From contig CAMBEQ010000005.1 of the NCBI GenBank assembly GCA_945865545.1, forward strand, positions 1-64,000: a stretch of 64,000 nt of DNA. The letters run 5' to 3'. Below, piece by piece: positions 22,660 through 31,629 of the stretch (positions are counted from its first letter, which is position 1; each line of letters begins with the position of its first letter). This DNA is from Sediminibacterium ginsengisoli (lineage in GTDB: Bacteria > Bacteroidota > Bacteroidia > Chitinophagales > Chitinophagaceae). A model generated the notes under the pieces. The model saw only the letters and a program-made list of their open reading frames with translations. It was not told where the DNA came from and searched no databases. The position numbers and the translations under genes were made by a program.

Positions 22660-23997
22660 TTAAAGTTTCAATAATTGTTTAATTTGTTGCTCTACTTTAA
22701 CAATTTCCATAGAAGCCACCACTTTTTGCATTGTGGCCGCTATTTGAGTGGTACAAAGATTGCCTAAACTGCCTTCATGGGTATGTTTCATTTGAGTGGA
22801 ATAGCTGAATTTACCTGCTTCTATGTCCATTCCAATTTGCTTATAAGCGTCTCTAAATGGCATGCCACTTAAAACCAATTTATTCACTTCTTCCACGCTA
22901 AATAGGTATTGGTATTTAGGATCTTCCAATAAATCTTTTTTCACTTCCATATTTTGAATCATTAAAGAAGCCATCTCTATACAATTTCTAAGTTGCGTAA
23001 AGGCTGGAAATAAATGCTCTTTCAACAATTGCAAATCACGATGATAACCAGATGGCAAATTGGTCGTCATCATCATTATTTCATTGGGTAAAGCTTTAAT
23101 TCGATTGCAATAAGACCTTATTAATTCAAAAACATCTGGATTTTTTTTATGTGGCATGATGCTAGAGCCTGTGGTCAATTCTTCGGGAAATTGTATGAAA
23201 CCAAAATTTTGATTCATAAACAAACAAGCGTCCATACTTAATTTAGACAAGGTATCTGCTATATTAGCTAAGGCCATAGCGGTAACTCTTTCTGCTTTAC
23301 CACGACCCATTTGCGCATACACTACATTATAATTTAAAGTTTCAAATCCCAATAATTCCGTAGTTCTTTTTCTATTGATGGGAAAGGAAGATCCATAACC
23401 GGCAGCAGAGCCTAAAGGATTTTTATTAACGATGGTATAAGCTGCTTGCAACATGGTCATATCATCTACTAAACTTTCTGCATAAGCGCCCAGCCATAAA
23501 CCAAAGGAAGAAGGCATGGCCAATTGCAAATGCGTATAACCTGGAAGTAAATCATTTTTATGCGCTTCACTTTTTTCTTGTAGCAAAGTAAAAAAAGTTT
23601 GCACCGATGCACTCATACTAATTAATTCGGCGCGTAAAAATAATTTGATGTCTACTAAAACCTGATCATTCCTACTTCTGGCACTATGAATTTTTTTGCC
23701 CACATCTCCCAAGCTTTCGGTCAACATCATTTCTATTTGTGAATGGATGTCTTCTACACCTGGGTCCAATTTAAAATCGCCTGCTTGAATTTTTTGGTAT
23801 ATTTCAATTAAAGCTTTTTTGAGTTGTGTTTGTTCTAATGCAGTAAGTAAGCCTACTTCAGACAACATGGTAGTATGCGCAATAGATCCTAATACATCGT
23901 AGGCCGCTAAATAGGTATCCATGGCTTGATCATTGCCAATGGTAAATTTTTCTACCGCTGCTGATACCTTGCTGTTTTTTTGCCAAAGCTTACTCAT
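22660..23997 (-). CDS. argH: Argininosuccinate lyase (start MSKLWQK preferred over ORF start 24015)
   Basis: GSSIMPHKKNPDVFELIR; SARSRNDQVLVDIKLFLR. Confidence 0.97.
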   Translation of the reverse strand: MSKLWQKNSKVSAAVEKFTIGNDQAMDTYLAAYDVLGSIAHTTMLSEVGLLTALEQTQLKKALIEIYQKIQAGDFKLDPGVEDIHSQIEMMLTESLGDVGKKIHSARSRNDQVLVDIKLFLRAELISMSASVQTFFTLLQEKSEAHKNDLLPGYTHLQLAMPSSFGLWLGAYAESLVDDMTMLQAAYTIVNKNPLGSAAGYGSSFPINRKRTTELLGFETLNYNVVYAQMGRGKAERVTAMALANIADTLSKLSMDACLFMNQNFGFIQFPEELTTGSSIMPHKKNPDVFELIRSYCNRIKALPNEIMMMTTNLPSGYHRDLQLLKEHLFPAFTQLRNCIEMASLMIQNMEVKKDLLEDPKYQYLFSVEEVNKLVLSGMPFRDAYKQIGMDIEAGKFSYSTQMKHTHEGSLGNLCTTQIAATMQKVVASMEIVKVEQQIKQLLKL

Positions 23998-25093
23998 GAT
24001 TAAACATTTTTTCAAGTAATTGAATATAAGTTACAATACCTTCTTCTATCTCATTAATATATATACACTCATCTGCTGTGTGGCTTCGAGCAGAATCGCC
24101 TGGTCCCATTTTTAAAGTAGGGAAAGGCATTAAGGCTTTATCAGAAGAAGTCGCCGAACCAAAATAGTTCTTACCTAATGCACTACCACATTTGACTAAT
24201 GGATGATCAACTGAAATATTGGTAGACCTTAGTCTTACACTTCTTGGTGTAACGGTTGATTTTACATGTTGTTGTACTGTAGTTACAATTTCTTCTAAAG
24301 TATACAATTCATTCACACGTACATCCACTATCAATCTACAAGTAGATGGAACCACATTGTGTTGTTTATTATCTGTTTCAATTACCGTAACACTCATCTT
24401 CACTTTACCCAACAATGGAGATACTTTGTCAAATTGAAAACTTTTAAACCACTCTACATCCGGTAATATTTTATACAAAGCGCTTTCTCCCTCTTCTCTT
24501 GCAGCATGACCTGGTTTCCCTGTAGCCACTATATCTAAAACTAATAATCCTCTTTCTGCAATGGCCATTTCCATTTGGGTGGGCTCTCCTACAATTCCAC
24601 AATCAATGGTAGGCAATTGTGGTAAAACCAATTCTATGCCATCCTGGCCCGAAATTTCTTCTTCTGCAGAAGCCACCAATACAATATTATAAGGTAAATT
24701 GGTTTGCGCATAAAAATATAAAAAGGTAGCTATTAAACTTACCAAACATCCTCCTGCATCATTACTACCTAAGCCGTATACTTTCCCATCCTGTTCAAAA
24801 GCGTTAAATGGTTCAAGTGAATAACCCTTATTAGGTTGTACCGTATCGTGGTGTGAATTTAATAATAAGGAAGGCTTATTGGAATCAAAATGTAAATTAG
24901 TGACCCAGATATTATTTTTTACTCTATTGGTTGGAATACCTCTATCTGCAAAAAACTGAGTTAATACTAAAGCGGTTTTATCTTCCTCCTTACTAAAAGA
25001 AGGAATAGCGATTAACGTTTTTAATAAGTCAATCGCCTCTTTTTGTAAGATGTTTATATTATTTGAATTGTATAGGTTATTATTAGGTGACAT
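23990..25093 (-). CDS. argE: M20 family deacylase, acetylornithine/N-acyl-citrulline deacetylase role by context
   Basis: LLNSHHDTVQPNKGYSLEPF, GLGSNDAGGCLVSLIATF, ASAEEEISGQDG. Confidence 0.85.
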   Translation of the reverse strand: MSPNNNLYNSNNINILQKEAIDLLKTLIAIPSFSKEEDKTALVLTQFFADRGIPTNRVKNNIWVTNLHFDSNKPSLLLNSHHDTVQPNKGYSLEPFNAFEQDGKVYGLGSNDAGGCLVSLIATFLYFYAQTNLPYNIVLVASAEEEISGQDGIELVLPQLPTIDCGIVGEPTQMEMAIAERGLLVLDIVATGKPGHAAREEGESALYKILPDVEWFKSFQFDKVSPLLGKVKMSVTVIETDNKQHNVVPSTCRLIVDVRVNELYTLEEIVTTVQQHVKSTVTPRSVRLRSTNISVDHPLVKCGSALGKNYFGSATSSDKALMPFPTLKMGPGDSARSHTADECIYINEIEEGIVTYIQLLEKMFNHE

Positions 25094-25875
25094 TAGTTGG
25101 TGATAGTGGTACCAGCAGTACCTTTGATTAATTCATCCATTCTTTCGGCTTTCCCAATAATAACCGATTGCACCCCGTGTTCAAGCGCCGAAAATGCATT
25201 ATCAATTTTGGGAATCATTCCTTCAGTTACAATTTGTTCCTCTTTGAACTTTTTGTAAAGTAGCTTGTCTAGCTTAGTAATCACTGAACTTGAATCATTG
25301 ACGTCTTTGAGCACCCCTTCTTTTTCGAAACCATAAATTAAATGTACTTGATAGGTTGTAGCCAAAGACGTAGCAATACTTTGTGCAATGGTATCGGCAT
25401 TGGTATTCAATAACTGTCCCTTGCCATCGTGCGTAATGGGTGCGATAACAAGTCTGCTATTATTTAAAAGCATTTGATTTAACAATTTGGTATTGACTGC
25501 ATCAATATCACCCACCATACCAAAATCAATTGCAGCATTAACTCTTTTATGCGCAAGTATTAAATTACCATCTACCCCCGACAAGCCTATAGCATTGACA
25601 CCCTCTGCTTGTAATTGTGCTACAATGTTTTTATTGATATAGCCCGCATACACCATGGTTACAATTTTCAAAGTAGCCTCATCTGTGATTCTTCTTCCCT
25701 CTACCATGGTTTGTTGCACACCCATTGAATCGGCCATACTAGTGGCTAATTTACCACCACCATGCACTAAAATAGCCTGACCCTTTACTTTCGCAAAAGA
25801 TTGTAAGCAAGCAGTTAACAATATAGGATTGTCTACAATATTGCCTCCTATTTTAATGACATATAATGATTCCAT
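25093..25875 (-). CDS. argB: Acetylglutamate kinase
   Basis: YVIKIGGNIVD, ILVHGGGKLATSMADSMGV, GLSGVDGNLILA. Confidence 0.95.
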   Translation of the reverse strand: MESLYVIKIGGNIVDNPILLTACLQSFAKVKGQAILVHGGGKLATSMADSMGVQQTMVEGRRITDEATLKIVTMVYAGYINKNIVAQLQAEGVNAIGLSGVDGNLILAHKRVNAAIDFGMVGDIDAVNTKLLNQMLLNNSRLVIAPITHDGKGQLLNTNADTIAQSIATSLATTYQVHLIYGFEKEGVLKDVNDSSSVITKLDKLLYKKFKEEQIVTEGMIPKIDNAFSALEHGVQSVIIGKAERMDELIKGTAGTTITN

Positions 25876-25919
25876 AAATTAACTTCTCTATTTTCCTTTG
25901 TTATTGAACTCGTTTTATA

Positions 25920-26888
25920 TTATTTGCTTTTCAAAATTTCTGACAAAACAGCTTGTGCCGCCCACACTCTATTAGAAGCTTCTTTAGTCACTAAACTATT
26001 AGGGCCGTCTAATATTTCATCACTCAATTCCACATTTCTTCTTACAGGTAAACAATGCATCAGTTTGGCATTATTGGTAAGCGCTAGTTTTTTATTATTC
26101 ATCATCCATTGAGTATCGCTACACAATACCTTACCATATTGCTCATAACTACTCCAATTTTTTACATACACAAAATCGGCGTCTTTCAATGCATCGTCTT
26201 GATGGTGCGTAATGATTGCCCCATTGGTATATTCGGCAGCCAATGCATAACCTTCTGGATGGGTAATTACAAAATTAGCTTCTCCCCAAGCATTCACCCA
26301 CTGGCTAAAACTATTAGCCACGCATTGTGGAATAGGTTTGATATGGGGCGCCCAGGTTAAAACAATTTTTGGTTTCTTATTTTTAAAAGAAACATTGGAA
26401 GCGATGGACTCTTGTATAGTAATAATATCTGTTAAAGATTGTAATGGATGTAAAGTCGCCGATTCTAAGCTTACAATGGGAACTCCTGCATATTTTATAA
26501 ATTGGTTGATTATTTTTTCGCCATAATCTTCTTCTTTATTAATCAAGCCAGGAAAAGTACGAATACATACTATATCAAAATAGTTCCCCAAAATAGGTGC
26601 CGCATCTTTAATATGCTCTACTGTAGTTCCATTCATGATAGCTCCTTCTGCAAATTCTAAAGCCCAGCCTTCTTTGTCTACATTAAAAACAATGGGTTCC
26701 ATTCCCAAATTTTGTGCAGCCACTTGTGTACTTAATCTGGTTCTTAAACTAGGATTTAAAAATAATAGTCCAATACGTTTATTAGCCCCCAATGATTTAT
26801 CTAAAAAAGGTTGCGCTTTATATTCTAATGCCTTTTTTACCAATGCATTAATATCAGAAACATCTTTTACTGAAATAAACTGTTTCAT
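25920..26888 (-). CDS. argF': N-acetyl/N-succinyl-ornithine carbamoyltransferase (ArgF'-type)
   Basis: FLNPSLRTRLSTQVAAQNLGM, SLESATLHPLQSLTDIITI, NNAKLMHCLPVRRNVELSDEIL. Confidence 0.9.
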   Translation of the reverse strand: MKQFISVKDVSDINALVKKALEYKAQPFLDKSLGANKRIGLLFLNPSLRTRLSTQVAAQNLGMEPIVFNVDKEGWALEFAEGAIMNGTTVEHIKDAAPILGNYFDIVCIRTFPGLINKEEDYGEKIINQFIKYAGVPIVSLESATLHPLQSLTDIITIQESIASNVSFKNKKPKIVLTWAPHIKPIPQCVANSFSQWVNAWGEANFVITHPEGYALAAEYTNGAIITHHQDDALKDADFVYVKNWSSYEQYGKVLCSDTQWMMNNKKLALTNNAKLMHCLPVRRNVELSDEILDGPNSLVTKEASNRVWAAQAVLSEILKSK

Positions 26889-26891
26889 AAT

Positions 26892-28043
26892 TTAAGAATG
26901 GGTTTGTTTCAATTGTTGAATAGCGGCATTCAACCTGTTTAAAAATAAGTTAATATCCTCCATCGTAATCGCCAATGAGGGCAATAGCCTTATTACATTA
27001 GGTTTGGCTTCGCCGGTAAATACTTTACAATCATTCAGCAACACTTTACGTAGTTCTTCTAATCCTGTTTCCATTTCAAAACCAATCATTAAGCCACGAC
27101 CTCTTACTGTTTTAATGCCTGCAGTATTTTTTAATGCATTAATTAAGTAAGTGCCTTTTTCTGCTGCTGCATCCATTAAATTTTCTTTTTGGATTACTTC
27201 AATCACTGCCAATGCTGCCGCACAAGCCAAAGGATTACCACCAAAAGTGGTTCCCAATAAACCAAACTTAGCTTGAATATGCGGGGCAATTAAAATGGCG
27301 CCAATAGGAAATCCATTGCCCATGCCCTTGGCCATGGAATAAATATCTGCATTAACACCAGCTATATCATGAGAAAAAAATTGTCCAGTACGACCATAGC
27401 CACATTGAACACTATCGGCAATATATACTGCCCCTGCCTCATCGCAACATTTTCTGATCGCCTGTAAAAAAGTAGTACTTGCTTCATAAATACCTGCCAC
27501 CCCCTGAATGCCTTCAATAATGACTGCAGCAATTTCATTGCCTTGAGTAGTAAAACAATTTTGTAACGCAGCTATATCATTAAAAGGCAAAAAGATAATA
27601 TTACCCGTCTCATTCACAGGAGCTACAATACTTGGATTGTCTGTAGCCGCTACTGCCAATGAGGTACGTCCATGAAATGCTTTCTTGAATGAAATAATTT
27701 TTTTTCTTCCTGTATGGAAGGAAGCTAATTTTAAAGCATTCTCATTGGCCTCGGCACCACTGTTGCATAAAAATAATTGAAAATCTTTTTTTCCGCTCAC
27801 TTCATTGATAGCAGTCGCCAATTGCGCTTGAATAGGCATAATCACTGAATTGGAATAAAAAGCCATCGCATGCAATTGATCCTCGATTCTTTTTACCCAA
27901 TGCGGATTGGTATGGCCAATGCTAATCACTGCATGACCTCCATACATGTCTAAATATTCCTGATCCTTATCGTCCCACACACGGCTGCCAGCCGCCTTGG
28001 TAATAGCGATAGGATTTAAAGGATATACATTGAATAAAGACAT
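26892..28043 (-). CDS. argD: Acetylornithine/succinylornithine aminotransferase
   Basis: FLCNSGAEANENALKLASFHTGRKKIISFKKAFHGRTS; Lys motif MAKGMGNGFPIGAI. Confidence 0.95.
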   Translation of the reverse strand: MSLFNVYPLNPIAITKAAGSRVWDDKDQEYLDMYGGHAVISIGHTNPHWVKRIEDQLHAMAFYSNSVIMPIQAQLATAINEVSGKKDFQLFLCNSGAEANENALKLASFHTGRKKIISFKKAFHGRTSLAVAATDNPSIVAPVNETGNIIFLPFNDIAALQNCFTTQGNEIAAVIIEGIQGVAGIYEASTTFLQAIRKCCDEAGAVYIADSVQCGYGRTGQFFSHDIAGVNADIYSMAKGMGNGFPIGAILIAPHIQAKFGLLGTTFGGNPLACAAALAVIEVIQKENLMDAAAEKGTYLINALKNTAGIKTVRGRGLMIGFEMETGLEELRKVLLNDCKVFTGEAKPNVIRLLPSLAITMEDINLFLNRLNAAIQQLKQTHS

Positions 28044-28065
28044 GGTTATAAATTAAATAAGTCGT

Positions 28066-29046
28066 TTAAAAATAATTTGCTTTTAATTGAAGCCCTGCGA
28101 TTTCTTCCAATCCAAAAATTAAATTCATATTTTGAACTGCTTGCCCTACTGCCCCTTTCAATAAATTATCCAATACCGCATGAATGGCAATTTTATCACC
28201 TTGTTGCTCAATATGAATCAAACACTTATTGGTATTTACTACTTGCTTCAAATCGATATTGGTTTTACTTACATGCGTGAAAGGCGCACCTGCATAATAA
28301 GATTCATATAGTTCATACAGTGCTTCTAATTTTAATGTAGTAGACAATATGGAACTTACCAATATACCTCTGGTAAAATCGCCTCTCCATGGAACAAAAT
28401 GAACTGCCGCTTTATTTTTTCCTTGCAACTTATTAAGGTTTTGTTCTATTTCATTAATATGTTGATGTTGCAATGTTTTGTAGGCTTGAATATTATTGGC
28501 TCTCCAACTAAATTGATTGGTCGCCGTAAGCCCTTGCCCTGCACCAGTGGATCCTGTAATGCCAGTGGTAAACACATCACTTAATACTCCTTGGGAAGCC
28601 AATGGCAATAAGCTTAATTGAATGGCGGTGGCAAAACAACCTGGGTTGGCAATGTTTTGAGCAGCTGCTATGGAAGACTTATTGAATTCCGGTAAACCAT
28701 ATACAAATTGTCTGTCTCCAATGGAAGAAGTTTCAGTTAATCTAAAATCTTGGGAAAGGTCAATGATCTTGATGCTTGATTTTATTTCATGGCTGGTCAA
28801 AAACTTTTTAGCATCTCCATGGCCTACACATAAAAATAGCACCTCTATGTTTTGATCCAATTCATTTACAAATTTTAAATTTGTATCCCCCACTAAATCG
28901 GCATGCACTTTACTCAATAGTTCCCCTGCATTACTGGTACTATGCACAAAAGTAATAGTAGCATTAGGATGACGAAGCAATACACGCAGCAATTCGCCAC
29001 CTGTATACCCCGCACCTCCGATAATTCCTATTTTTACTTTTTGCAT
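28066..29046 (-). CDS. argC: N-acetyl-gamma-glutamyl-phosphate reductase (start MQKVKIGIIGGAGYTGG)
   Basis: GIIGGAGYTGGELLRVLLRHP, NPGCFATAIQLSLLPL. Confidence 0.96.
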   Translation of the reverse strand: MQKVKIGIIGGAGYTGGELLRVLLRHPNATITFVHSTSNAGELLSKVHADLVGDTNLKFVNELDQNIEVLFLCVGHGDAKKFLTSHEIKSSIKIIDLSQDFRLTETSSIGDRQFVYGLPEFNKSSIAAAQNIANPGCFATAIQLSLLPLASQGVLSDVFTTGITGSTGAGQGLTATNQFSWRANNIQAYKTLQHQHINEIEQNLNKLQGKNKAAVHFVPWRGDFTRGILVSSILSTTLKLEALYELYESYYAGAPFTHVSKTNIDLKQVVNTNKCLIHIEQQGDKIAIHAVLDNLLKGAVGQAVQNMNLIFGLEEIAGLQLKANYF

Positions 29047-29056
29047 TTTTATTTTT

Positions 29057-30256
29057 TTATTTTTTGTTCGAATCTTTGATCTGATGAAAAATACTGGTTT
29101 GATTGCCAAATATTTTTGTAAAACCTCTTACATCTGCACCAGTCCAGCCTGTATTCATTTCTCCATACTTGCCAAATTTAGCGCTCATTAAATCATTCGC
29201 CGATTCAATACCTATCACTTGAAAACGATACGGATTTAATTGAATAAACACTTCTCCAGTGACTTGTTCTTGTGTACTATTTAAGTAAGCTTCTATATCA
29301 CGCATCACTGGATCTAAAATTTGTCCCTCATGCAACCAATTGCCATAAAATTGTGCCAATTGGTCTTTCCATGATAATTGCCATTTAGTTAAAACATGTT
29401 TTTCTAAAGCATGATGTGCTTTTAATATCACCATGGGGGCAGCCGCTTCAAAACCAACTCTTCCTTTAATACCAATGATGGTATCTCCCACATGAATATC
29501 TCTTCCAATACCATACGCCCCTGCTATAAATTGTATGTATTGAATGGCTTCGGTTGGATGAGTAAAAGTTTTTTTATTAACGGTTTTAATTTCTCCTTTT
29601 TCAAAACCTATCACCATTTCTTCGGTTTGCCCTTCTTTGGTCATTGGAGTAGGCCAAGCGCTTTCTGGCAACATGCCTTTGGATTGTAAAGTTTCTTTGC
29701 CACCGACACTGGTGCCCCATAAACCTTTATTAATTGAGTAAGCCGATTTTTCAAAATTCATTTGAACTCCTTTTCCTTTCAAATAATCAATTTCGGCTTC
29801 TCTACTCAATTGCAAATCACGAATGGGTGTTAAAATTTCAACTCCAGGAATCATAATTTGAAAAATCATATCAAAACGTACTTGATCATTTCCAGCACCC
29901 GTACTGCCATGCGCCACTAATTTAGCCCCCACTTTTTTTACATGGGCTGCAATATGCAATGCCTGGCTCAAACGCTCCGCACTCACACTTAATGGATAGG
30001 TATTATTTTTTAAAACATTCCCAAAAATTAAATACTTAATAATGCTATCATAATATCCCTTTACAGCATTAACGGTCGTATGTGATTTTACGCCTAATGC
30101 ATAAGCATGTGCTTCTACTTTTTTTAATTCCTCTTCGCTAAAGCCACCTGTATTCACTATCACACTGTGTACTTCTAAACCTTTGTCCTCGGTTAAATAT
30201 TTTACACAATAGGTAGTATCCAACCCCCCACTAAATCCTAATACAATTTTTTCCAT
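29057..30256 (-). CDS. argG: Argininosuccinate synthase
   Basis: KIVLGFSGGLDTTYCVKYL; AHGSTGAGNDQVRFDM. Confidence 0.96.
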   Translation of the reverse strand: MEKIVLGFSGGLDTTYCVKYLTEDKGLEVHSVIVNTGGFSEEELKKVEAHAYALGVKSHTTVNAVKGYYDSIIKYLIFGNVLKNNTYPLSVSAERLSQALHIAAHVKKVGAKLVAHGSTGAGNDQVRFDMIFQIMIPGVEILTPIRDLQLSREAEIDYLKGKGVQMNFEKSAYSINKGLWGTSVGGKETLQSKGMLPESAWPTPMTKEGQTEEMVIGFEKGEIKTVNKKTFTHPTEAIQYIQFIAGAYGIGRDIHVGDTIIGIKGRVGFEAAAPMVILKAHHALEKHVLTKWQLSWKDQLAQFYGNWLHEGQILDPVMRDIEAYLNSTQEQVTGEVFIQLNPYRFQVIGIESANDLMSAKFGKYGEMNTGWTGADVRGFTKIFGNQTSIFHQIKDSNKK

Positions 30257-30261
30257 AACAA

Positions 30262-30909
30262 TTATTTTTTTCTAAGCCAATTCAGTAATTTACTTTGTTT
30301 TATTTTCATAAAACGCTCATATAGCTTAGAGTTATTTGAAAATTCAGCCGCTACCTCTTCCACACTGTGTATTTGCTTTGGCTCATACAACATGGCGGTA
30401 CACATACAATTTTTACGATCCTTACTCATTAAAATTTCATAGTTCACACAGCTTTTGCAACCAGCCCAAAATTCTTCATCATCGGTAAGCTCGCTATAGG
30501 TAACTGGCTCATACCCTAATTCACTATTTATTTTCATCACTGCTAACCCCGTAGTCAATCCAAATATTTTTGCATTGGGATACTTTTCTCTGGACAATTG
30601 AAAAGTAGTTTGTTTAATTTTTTTTGCAATCCCAGTTTTTCTAAAGGCTGGTGCTACAATTAAGCCACTATTGGCTACAAACTGTCCATGTTGCCAGGCT
30701 TCTATATAACAAAACCCTACCCAGGTTCCATCTTCTGTTAAAGCGATAACGGATTTGCCTTCATTTATTTTCATGGCAACATATTCAGGACTGCGTTTGG
30801 CAATACCCGTACCACGCGCTTGAGCCGAAGAGGCCATTTCATCAGTAATATCATGTGCAAAGGAGGCGTCCCCACTGTGGGCAACGCGTACAATAATTTT
30901 CTGTTCCAA
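30262..30909 (-). CDS. GNAT family N-acetyltransferase, candidate first-step enzyme of the operon (TTG start)
   Basis: GNAT core GFCYIEAWQHGQFVANSGLIVAPAFRKTGIAKKI; C-terminal CKSC-x13-CMC motif; first gene of the arg operon. Confidence 0.8.
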   Translation of the reverse strand: MEQKIIVRVAHSGDASFAHDITDEMASSAQARGTGIAKRSPEYVAMKINEGKSVIALTEDGTWVGFCYIEAWQHGQFVANSGLIVAPAFRKTGIAKKIKQTTFQLSREKYPNAKIFGLTTGLAVMKINSELGYEPVTYSELTDDEEFWAGCKSCVNYEILMSKDRKNCMCTAMLYEPKQIHSVEEVAAEFSNNSKLYERFMKIKQSKLLNWLRKK

Positions 30910-30972
30910 TGAGCTTTAAATTTTAAGGAAATACTATGCTGGCGGAAGAATGCTTCTTTGGGGTTTTTTCCA

Positions 30973-31127
30973 CTGATAGGGGCAAGTGCCAATTGCTCGT
31001 CCTATCAGAATCCACGTCGGCAAAAAAAGCCTAAGATCCTAGGCATCCAAATTGGGCTGGGTTCATTCAAAACAGGTACTGGTGCATATTTTGCACTAGC
31101 GATAATAGTATGTAATTGTACCTGTTT
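30973..31127 (-). promoter_or_regulatory. Structured arg operon leader (possible attenuator)
   Basis: 10-bp inverted repeat 31070-31079/31118-31127; hairpin 31082-31086/31092-31096; GCCTAGGATCTTAGGC-T7 at 31022-31044; 8-bp inverted repeat 30973-30980/31001-31008. Confidence 0.55.
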
Positions 31128-31130
31128 CAT
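31005..31130 (-). CDS. Putative 41-aa leader peptide of the arg operon
   Basis: ATG with AAAGGAG Shine-Dalgarno 8 nt upstream; reads MKQVQLHTIIASAKYAPVPVLNEPSPIWMPRILGFFCRRGF stop. Below the ORF-track length cutoff. Confidence 0.6.
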   Translation of the reverse strand: MKQVQLHTIIASAKYAPVPVLNEPSPIWMPRILGFFCRRGF

Positions 31131-31206
31131 TTAGATTACTCCTTTGTATAAGAAAGAGGACCTAAAAGTATAAAATAAAATAGACAAATAGGGCTATAGA
31201 CCCCCT

Positions 31207-31314: not shown

Positions 31315-31629
31315 ATGAAAATAGTTAAAAGTGGATTTTTAGTAGGATGCGTTCTGCTAATTTTAGCCTGTGGCCAAAGCAATTCAAATAATTCAGTTTC
31401 CCCCACCGATACCATTAATGTGGTGGCAGCGGATACGGCTACTGAAAAAACTTTTGCAGTAAGCTTAGTAAATAATAAAAAAGATCCCACTTGTGGCATG
31501 CCGGTAACTGCAGGAATACATGATACCACCCATTATGAAAATAAGGTATTGGGATTTTGTTCCACTGAATGCAAAAATGAATTTTTGAAAAATCCTAAGG
31601 CGAATCTAGCTGCTGCAGAAATAAAATAA
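31315..31629 (+). CDS. YHS-domain lipoprotein
   Basis: Lipobox ILAC; DPTCGMPVTAGIHDTTHYENKVLGFCSTECKNEFLKNP. Confidence 0.85.
   Translation: MKIVKSGFLVGCVLLILACGQSNSNNSVSPTDTINVVAADTATEKTFAVSLVNNKKDPTCGMPVTAGIHDTTHYENKVLGFCSTECKNEFLKNPKANLAAAEIK

Follow-up and report, generated by a model that had tools for sequence, protein, structure and literature searches.

Arginine-codon leader and conserved hairpin upstream of the arginine biosynthesis operon of Chitinophagaceae: a probable ribosome-mediated attenuator

The arginine biosynthesis operon in the window (the whole 64,000-nucleotide stretch of Chitinophagaceae, Sediminibacterium-like DNA analyzed here) is preceded by a short open reading frame (ORF) that carries tandem arginine codons near its end and terminates within a conserved RNA hairpin, denoted hairpin 1. 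This leader and hairpin 1 very probably switch the arg genes depending on the arginine supply. The conserved arginine codons, stop position and stems, the selection on CGA codons and the failure to find ArgR in the family strongly support the ribosome-mediated arginine sensor proposed in the earlier note, and we consider it likely that the leader is an attenuator that senses charged arginine tRNA with the polarity described below. Of the individual parts of this reading, sensing by the arginine codons appears very likely; the polarity, with folded hairpin 1 as the "on" state and opened hairpin 1 as the "off" state, is favored on geometric grounds with less assurance; and early transcription termination is a tentative candidate for the output. 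The relevant features of the window are as follows.

31163-31170, minus strand: TACTTTTA, candidate promoter element (-7-like) ahead of the leader ORF (genus alignment).
31139-31145, minus strand: AAAGGAG, resembling a ribosome-binding site, followed by 8 nt and ATG (window sequence).
31005-31130, minus strand: leader ORF of 41 codons, MKQVQLHTIIASAKYAPVPVLNEPSPIWMPRILGFFCRRGF, stop codon TGA (window sequence and coding signature in relatives).
31069-31128, minus strand: leader-ORF hairpin, with the outer stem 31128-31118/31079-31069 and the inner stem 31096-31092/31086-31082 (covariation).
31022-31044, minus strand: terminator-like GCCTAGGATCTTAGGC-T7 inside the ORF (not conserved).
31014-31019, minus strand: tandem putative control codons CGA-CGT, the Arg codons -4 and -3 before the stop (conserved among the type A loci, that is, loci with hairpin 1; 101 non-redundant).
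30973-31008, minus strand: hairpin 1, consisting of arms 31008-31001 and 30980-30973, an ACGA internal loop, an inner stem and an apical loop (covariation).
30988-30992, minus strand: TTGGC, apical loop segment of hairpin 1 (covaries with the downstream segment).
30939-30943, minus strand: GCCAG, downstream complement of the apical loop, segment R2 (GCCA in 34 of 34 close relatives).
30262-30909, minus strand: GNAT acetyltransferase (ArgA-like), which begins the operon and has a TTG start (ORF list and domain search).
29057-30256, minus strand: argG, argininosuccinate synthase (ORF list and profile searches).
22660-29109, minus strand: argC, argD, argF' (acetylornithine carbamoyltransferase), argB, argE and argH, the remainder of the operon (ORFs).

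The ORFs of the window bear out the placement of the leader ahead of an eight-gene operon, GNAT-argG-argC-argD-argF'-argB-argE-argH. The argF' gene was assigned through NCBIfam NF003384, with a match slightly below the cut-off, and argC, argD, argB, argE and argH are what we take the respective genes to be given their recognizable sequences. The leader region is present in a single copy in the genome from which the window comes. On the opposite side, a divergent gene for a small lipoprotein-like protein with a YHS domain (31315-31629, plus strand) adjoins the leader promoter upstream.

Comparison with relatives, whose upstream regions were gathered using the GNAT gene as the query, indicates that the small leader ORF is real and translated. 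The putative ribosome-binding site, the 8-nt spacing, the ATG codon and the 41-codon ORF are all found where the earlier note had placed them. When a leader is defined as a short ORF that stops 75-160 nt before GNAT and has an arginine pair close to its end, an arginine-rich leader ending about 100 nt before this gene is detected in 146 of the 149 family loci, compared to 7.1% for shuffled upstream sequence and 2% for the reverse strand in the same test. The possibility that the ORF is coincidental, which the earlier note had allowed for, is thus far outside chance expectation. Two of the three exceptions (L017 and L046) retain hairpin 1 and have other Arg codons; in the third, the metagenome-assembled relative L172, a deletion takes out both the tandem Arg codons and hairpin 1, and is either a natural mutation or an artifact of assembly.

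The substitution pattern points in the same direction. Among 34 close relatives, changes at the first, second and third codon positions number 760, 584 and 1361, respectively, and single changes include 815 synonymous and 663 nonsynonymous ones; these counts come from relatives picked for an in-frame ORF with an ATG start, exclude the last eight codons and involve non-independent sequence pairs. The excess of third-position changes is the pattern expected of a translated ORF. As a control against frame retention caused by this choice of relatives, ATG-AAR-CAR was sought in all frames ahead of the hairpin; all 33 loci that contain it have it in frame with the TGA, one of them with an intervening stop, and for NTG-AAR-CAR the frame matches in 44 of 48. 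The ORF and its Arg codons are accordingly kept in relatives with start and stop in frame, and the candidate -7 element upstream is conserved as well: the genus alignment contains a TA-N-N-TTT core upstream of the leader start, located 33-40 nt before the ATG in the window. The observations that, according to the earlier note, would have refuted the sensor did not turn up. The leader peptide has no Pfam match up to E = 1.

The tandem CGA-CGT, reported in the earlier note to precede the 5' arm of the hairpin, occupies 31019-31014, and alignment of the upstream regions, which that note had proposed as a check, reveals conservation of the Arg pair, the stop position and the stems. Among the 101 type A loci, codon -4 encodes Arg in 91 and is CGA in 81, codon -3 encodes Arg in 76 and is CGT in 67, and all 101 have two to four Arg codons within the final nine. 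The C-terminal RRG[FC] is well kept in type A, and the stop codon is TGA in 101 of 101 loci, a triplet that the hairpin search pattern itself demanded. CGA accounts for 48.6% of the Arg codons in leaders but only 5.7% in the adjacent GNAT gene (164 loci; the P value for this contrast is inflated by kinship, the contrast itself is not), and in the long ORFs of the window the shares are 9% for CGA and 54% for AGA.

The Arg anticodons among the tRNA loci examined in the same genome are ACG, CCG, TCT and CCT, so that CGA is presumably read by ACG; an ACG anticodon reads CGA via inosine. In a Salmonella his-leader assay, CGA gave the highest de-attenuation next to other Arg codons, AGG excepted, and it was the slowest of the common partners within Arg-Arg pairs (PMC4046918). 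Together, the codon comparisons make a strong case that the slow synonymous CGA is under strong selection in what would be a regulatory role, and such selection at the synonymous level speaks for sensing via decoding speed.

In the window, the arms of hairpin 1 are CTGATAGG (31008-31001) and CCTATCAG (30980-30973), and the TGA (31007-31005) lies within the 5' arm. The overlap of the stop codon with this arm, noted previously from the single sequence, is therefore present in CTGATAGG, and the stop position is conserved. Hairpin 1 has 97.6% of cells paired and a covariation score of 0.224 compared to 0.111 shuffled (0/500). Over 49 diverse rows, 7 of the 8 outer-stem pairs are invariant in sequence, an invariance that partly results from how the rows were chosen, as most of the outer stem was prescribed by the search pattern; the inner stem, which the pattern left free, covaries. 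The ACGA internal loop (31000-30997) and the outer-stem sequence are conserved beyond the needs of base-pairing, and a CAGTGRAA sequence that follows hairpin 1 is highly conserved.

The exact pattern CTGAYAGG..loop..CCCTRTCAGTG occurs once per genome in 32 of the 299 genomes of the order, all from this family, and a covariance model of hairpin 1 yields one match each in 37 of 120 family genomes. The position of hairpin 1 was checked in 36 loci (30 found by the pattern and 6 by the model), and in each it is located just upstream of GNAT. A weak extra match in G021 (E = 0.0025), a genome with no GNAT match and no Arg leader at this site, was taken as a chance hit. A search of Rfam 15 produced no match in the window at the gathering threshold, nor in four loci up to E = 0.5.

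The apical loop appears to pair with a segment farther downstream. Where the loop is of the ACCA type, the downstream segment is of the UGGU type, and the mean longest loop complement is 4.54 nt in the loop's own downstream region compared to 3.83 nt in exchanged ones (50 distinct loops, z = 5.5). The signal is also seen among ACC loops only (z = 3.8); UGGC loops, which hardly vary, show no excess complementarity to the downstream region when taken alone. Two other pairings were considered and discarded: UGGCACUU with AAGUGUCA-U7 as a terminator, which fits some relatives but is lost when the loop changes, and pairing of the tandem Arg codons with downstream segments, which was seen by eye in single loci only and is inconsistent.

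The 10-bp stem across the first half of the ORF described in the earlier note (AAACAGGTAC/GTACCTGTTT) is present, encloses a second stem and is conserved within the close clade. Both stems are kept with compensatory changes (88.6% of cells paired in 33 distinct close relatives; covariation score 0.172 compared to 0.071 shuffled, 0/500). By analogy, this could be a transcription-pause hairpin that lets the ribosome catch up. The AGG codon inside a terminator-like hairpin is likewise present in the window, but it is not conserved and a role for it is not supported: relatives L131, L132 and L135-L137 keep the rest of the ORF but are without the 11 codons in which both the codon and the hairpin lie, and the element is not in the genus alignment outside the window. 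This lack of conservation speaks against the AGG codon and the in-ORF terminator as functional parts, so that of the earlier interpretation the sensor is supported and these two elements are not.

Under the proposed mechanism, folding of hairpin 1 would depend on the position of the ribosome, as suggested by the geometry of the leader. When Arg-tRNA is scarce, the ribosome would stall at CGA-CGN, its A site occupied by the -4 Arg codon. In E. coli, counting from the first base of the codon in the A site, the ribosome reaches about 12-13 nt ahead; the front edge of the stalled ribosome would touch only the foot of hairpin 1 (the first two or three bases), and hairpin 1 together with the loop-downstream pairing would stay formed, leaving the operon on. 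With ample arginine, a ribosome at the UGA would cover the whole 5' arm, hairpin 1 would open and the operon would be off. The folded hairpin is taken as the "on" state because shortage is when a biosynthetic operon should be active. In the "off" state, transcription might stop in a Rho-dependent manner or at a weak intrinsic site, which is a guess; blocked translation of GNAT or mRNA decay would be alternatives. The stretch between hairpin 1 and GNAT contains 20% C and 13% G, a bias that is weakly compatible with Rho. Simple attenuation gives no explanation for the invariant outer stem and the ACGA loop.

In another reading, hairpin 1 and the loop pairing are themselves the sensor, either an arginine aptamer or a site bound by a regulatory protein, with the leader peptide doing no more than tuning the response. 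The near-invariance of the outer pairs, the conservation of the ACGA loop and of the downstream CAGTGRAA, and the long-range loop pairing all fit such a sensor; yet the arginine-rich leader is more common than the hairpin, Arg codons occur without it in type B leaders (those without the type A hairpin) and in other families, the selection on CGA indicates decoding, a stop codon within the 5' arm suits control by the ribosome, and Rfam offers no match, so we regard this reading as improbable. A composite version, in which hairpin 1 and its pseudoknot form a new RNA class that senses arginine or a protein while the CGA codons read tRNA charging, seems a little more improbable still; if true, two arginine signals would be combined in one 150-nt leader. 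The conservation of RRG[FC] in type A and the constant TGA could also be accounted for by nascent-peptide arrest, where free arginine acts on a ribosome whose tunnel holds the peptide; the fungal arginine attenuator peptide and SpeFL are examples. This alternative, which the earlier note had raised, is weakened by the wide divergence of the peptide across the family apart from its arginines, by some type A leaders that end in RRRPEC-like or PQRCPL-like sequences instead of RRG, and by selection at the synonymous codon level, and is in our view very improbable.

Other rivals concern the output. Classical trp-type attenuation at an intrinsic terminator just before GNAT would find a parallel in the leader-ORF hairpin, which resembles the trp pause hairpin, and in three Sediminibacterium loci (L150, L161 and L173) where the stretch from hairpin 1 to GNAT contains an A/U-rich hairpin and then CTTTTT; the arms of this hairpin differ yet remain self-complementary, and it is possibly a lineage-specific terminator. 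However, no such terminator was found in the window, and no conserved intrinsic terminator was detected after hairpin 1 in type A loci, where terminator-like hairpins are in no clear excess over shuffled sequence (mean -0.58 versus -0.41); this reading is unlikely. Alternatively, the freed 3' half of hairpin 1 could hide the GNAT start codon in a translational switch, and complementarity of the loop to the start region is in weak excess (z about -2.3 to -2.7). Over the 101 loci, the predicted accessibility of the GNAT start is nonetheless the same with hairpin 1 folded or open (0.528 versus 0.528, P = 0.5), which does not support hiding of the start as the output, and we hold such a switch to be improbable.

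The attenuator reading has precedents among characterized leaders. One is orf34 (SpeFL) of Salmonella speF, for which experiments show that a hairpin just after the stop codon forms only when the ribosome pauses at tandem Arg codons (PMC6386406). Similarly to the leader described here, orf34 is a short ORF with two consecutive Arg codons and no intrinsic terminator and, as in the proposed model, its hairpin forms at the Arg-codon pause and is prevented when the ribosome reaches the stop; it differs in its target, ornithine decarboxylase, its 516-nt leader, the involvement of Rho and RNase G, its occurrence in Proteobacteria and its peptide (PMC6386406). In the present case, the target is an arginine biosynthesis operon, the stop codon lies inside the hairpin, no sequence relation was found, and the HIRRT-HIMM core of SpeFL (DUF2618) is absent from the leader peptide. 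The trp, his and leu attenuators share with this leader a peptide enriched in the amino acid that the operon makes, control codons beside the stop, an RNA structure at the stop and a possible pause hairpin, whereas here arginine is sensed, there is no conserved intrinsic terminator and the hairpin includes the stop codon. The rbfL leader of Staphylococcus aureus also has rare Arg codons in a leader ORF and responds to arginine supply, but in that case a stalled ribosome occludes the ribosome-binding site of a biofilm regulator, with the result that shortage represses rather than activates (PMC13009471). The proposed system works like speF orf34 and the amino-acid leader attenuators, but is outside the SpeFL family and is without the classical feature of an intrinsic terminator.

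The failure to detect ArgR in the family speaks for such a role. Arginine operons are usually described as controlled by ArgR; ArgR/AhrC performs the same physiological task but, unlike the leader, is a DNA-binding protein. A search for ArgR (PF01316) was negative in all 120 family genomes and positive in 9 of 14 control genomes. Among 199 Bacteroidota genomes, ArgR is strongly matched (E <= 1e-15) in about 70 and GNAT in about 85, and ArgR is present in other Bacteroidota that lack the GNAT gene. In a by-eye comparison of the lists for these 199 genomes, none was seen with strong matches to both. This exclusivity reflects, in part, a split between lineages.

Leaders without hairpin 1 exist within the family and beyond it. 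Type B makes up 34 of 68 sampled family leaders, at least one of these misclassified; its representatives (L003, L006, L009 and others) mostly end in RRPRI, with TAA or TGA as the stop and varied sequence thereafter. Given that these leaders lack hairpin 1, the switching element is not universal. In other Bacteroidota families (f19, f23, f28, f42 and some of f25), arginine-rich leaders end roughly 75-155 nt before GNAT, as identified under a looser rule whose tallies include chance matches; endings seen among Bacteroidota families other than this one (L246-L285 and L104-L128) include RRIPRRR, RRRPYMPRA, RRFRRPSGV, RRRRYFFRV and PTRRRP.

The full-text literature searched, in the parts that were accessible, contains no arginine leader in Bacteroidota; predictions may be included in Lopatovskaya et al., 2010, reportedly a comparative study of attenuators (cited in PMC4833913). 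A passage of a Flavobacterium transcriptome study mentions clues to leader-peptide attenuation upstream of amino-acid operons and does not name arginine (PMC9723704). Chitinophagaceae, with no detectable ArgR, and apparently several other families of Bacteroidota possess leaders with Arg codons ahead of the arg operon. Hairpin 1 adds to the known repertoire a covarying RNA motif that has no Rfam match, and the Arg-codon leaders provide a testable answer to the question of how these bacteria sense arginine.
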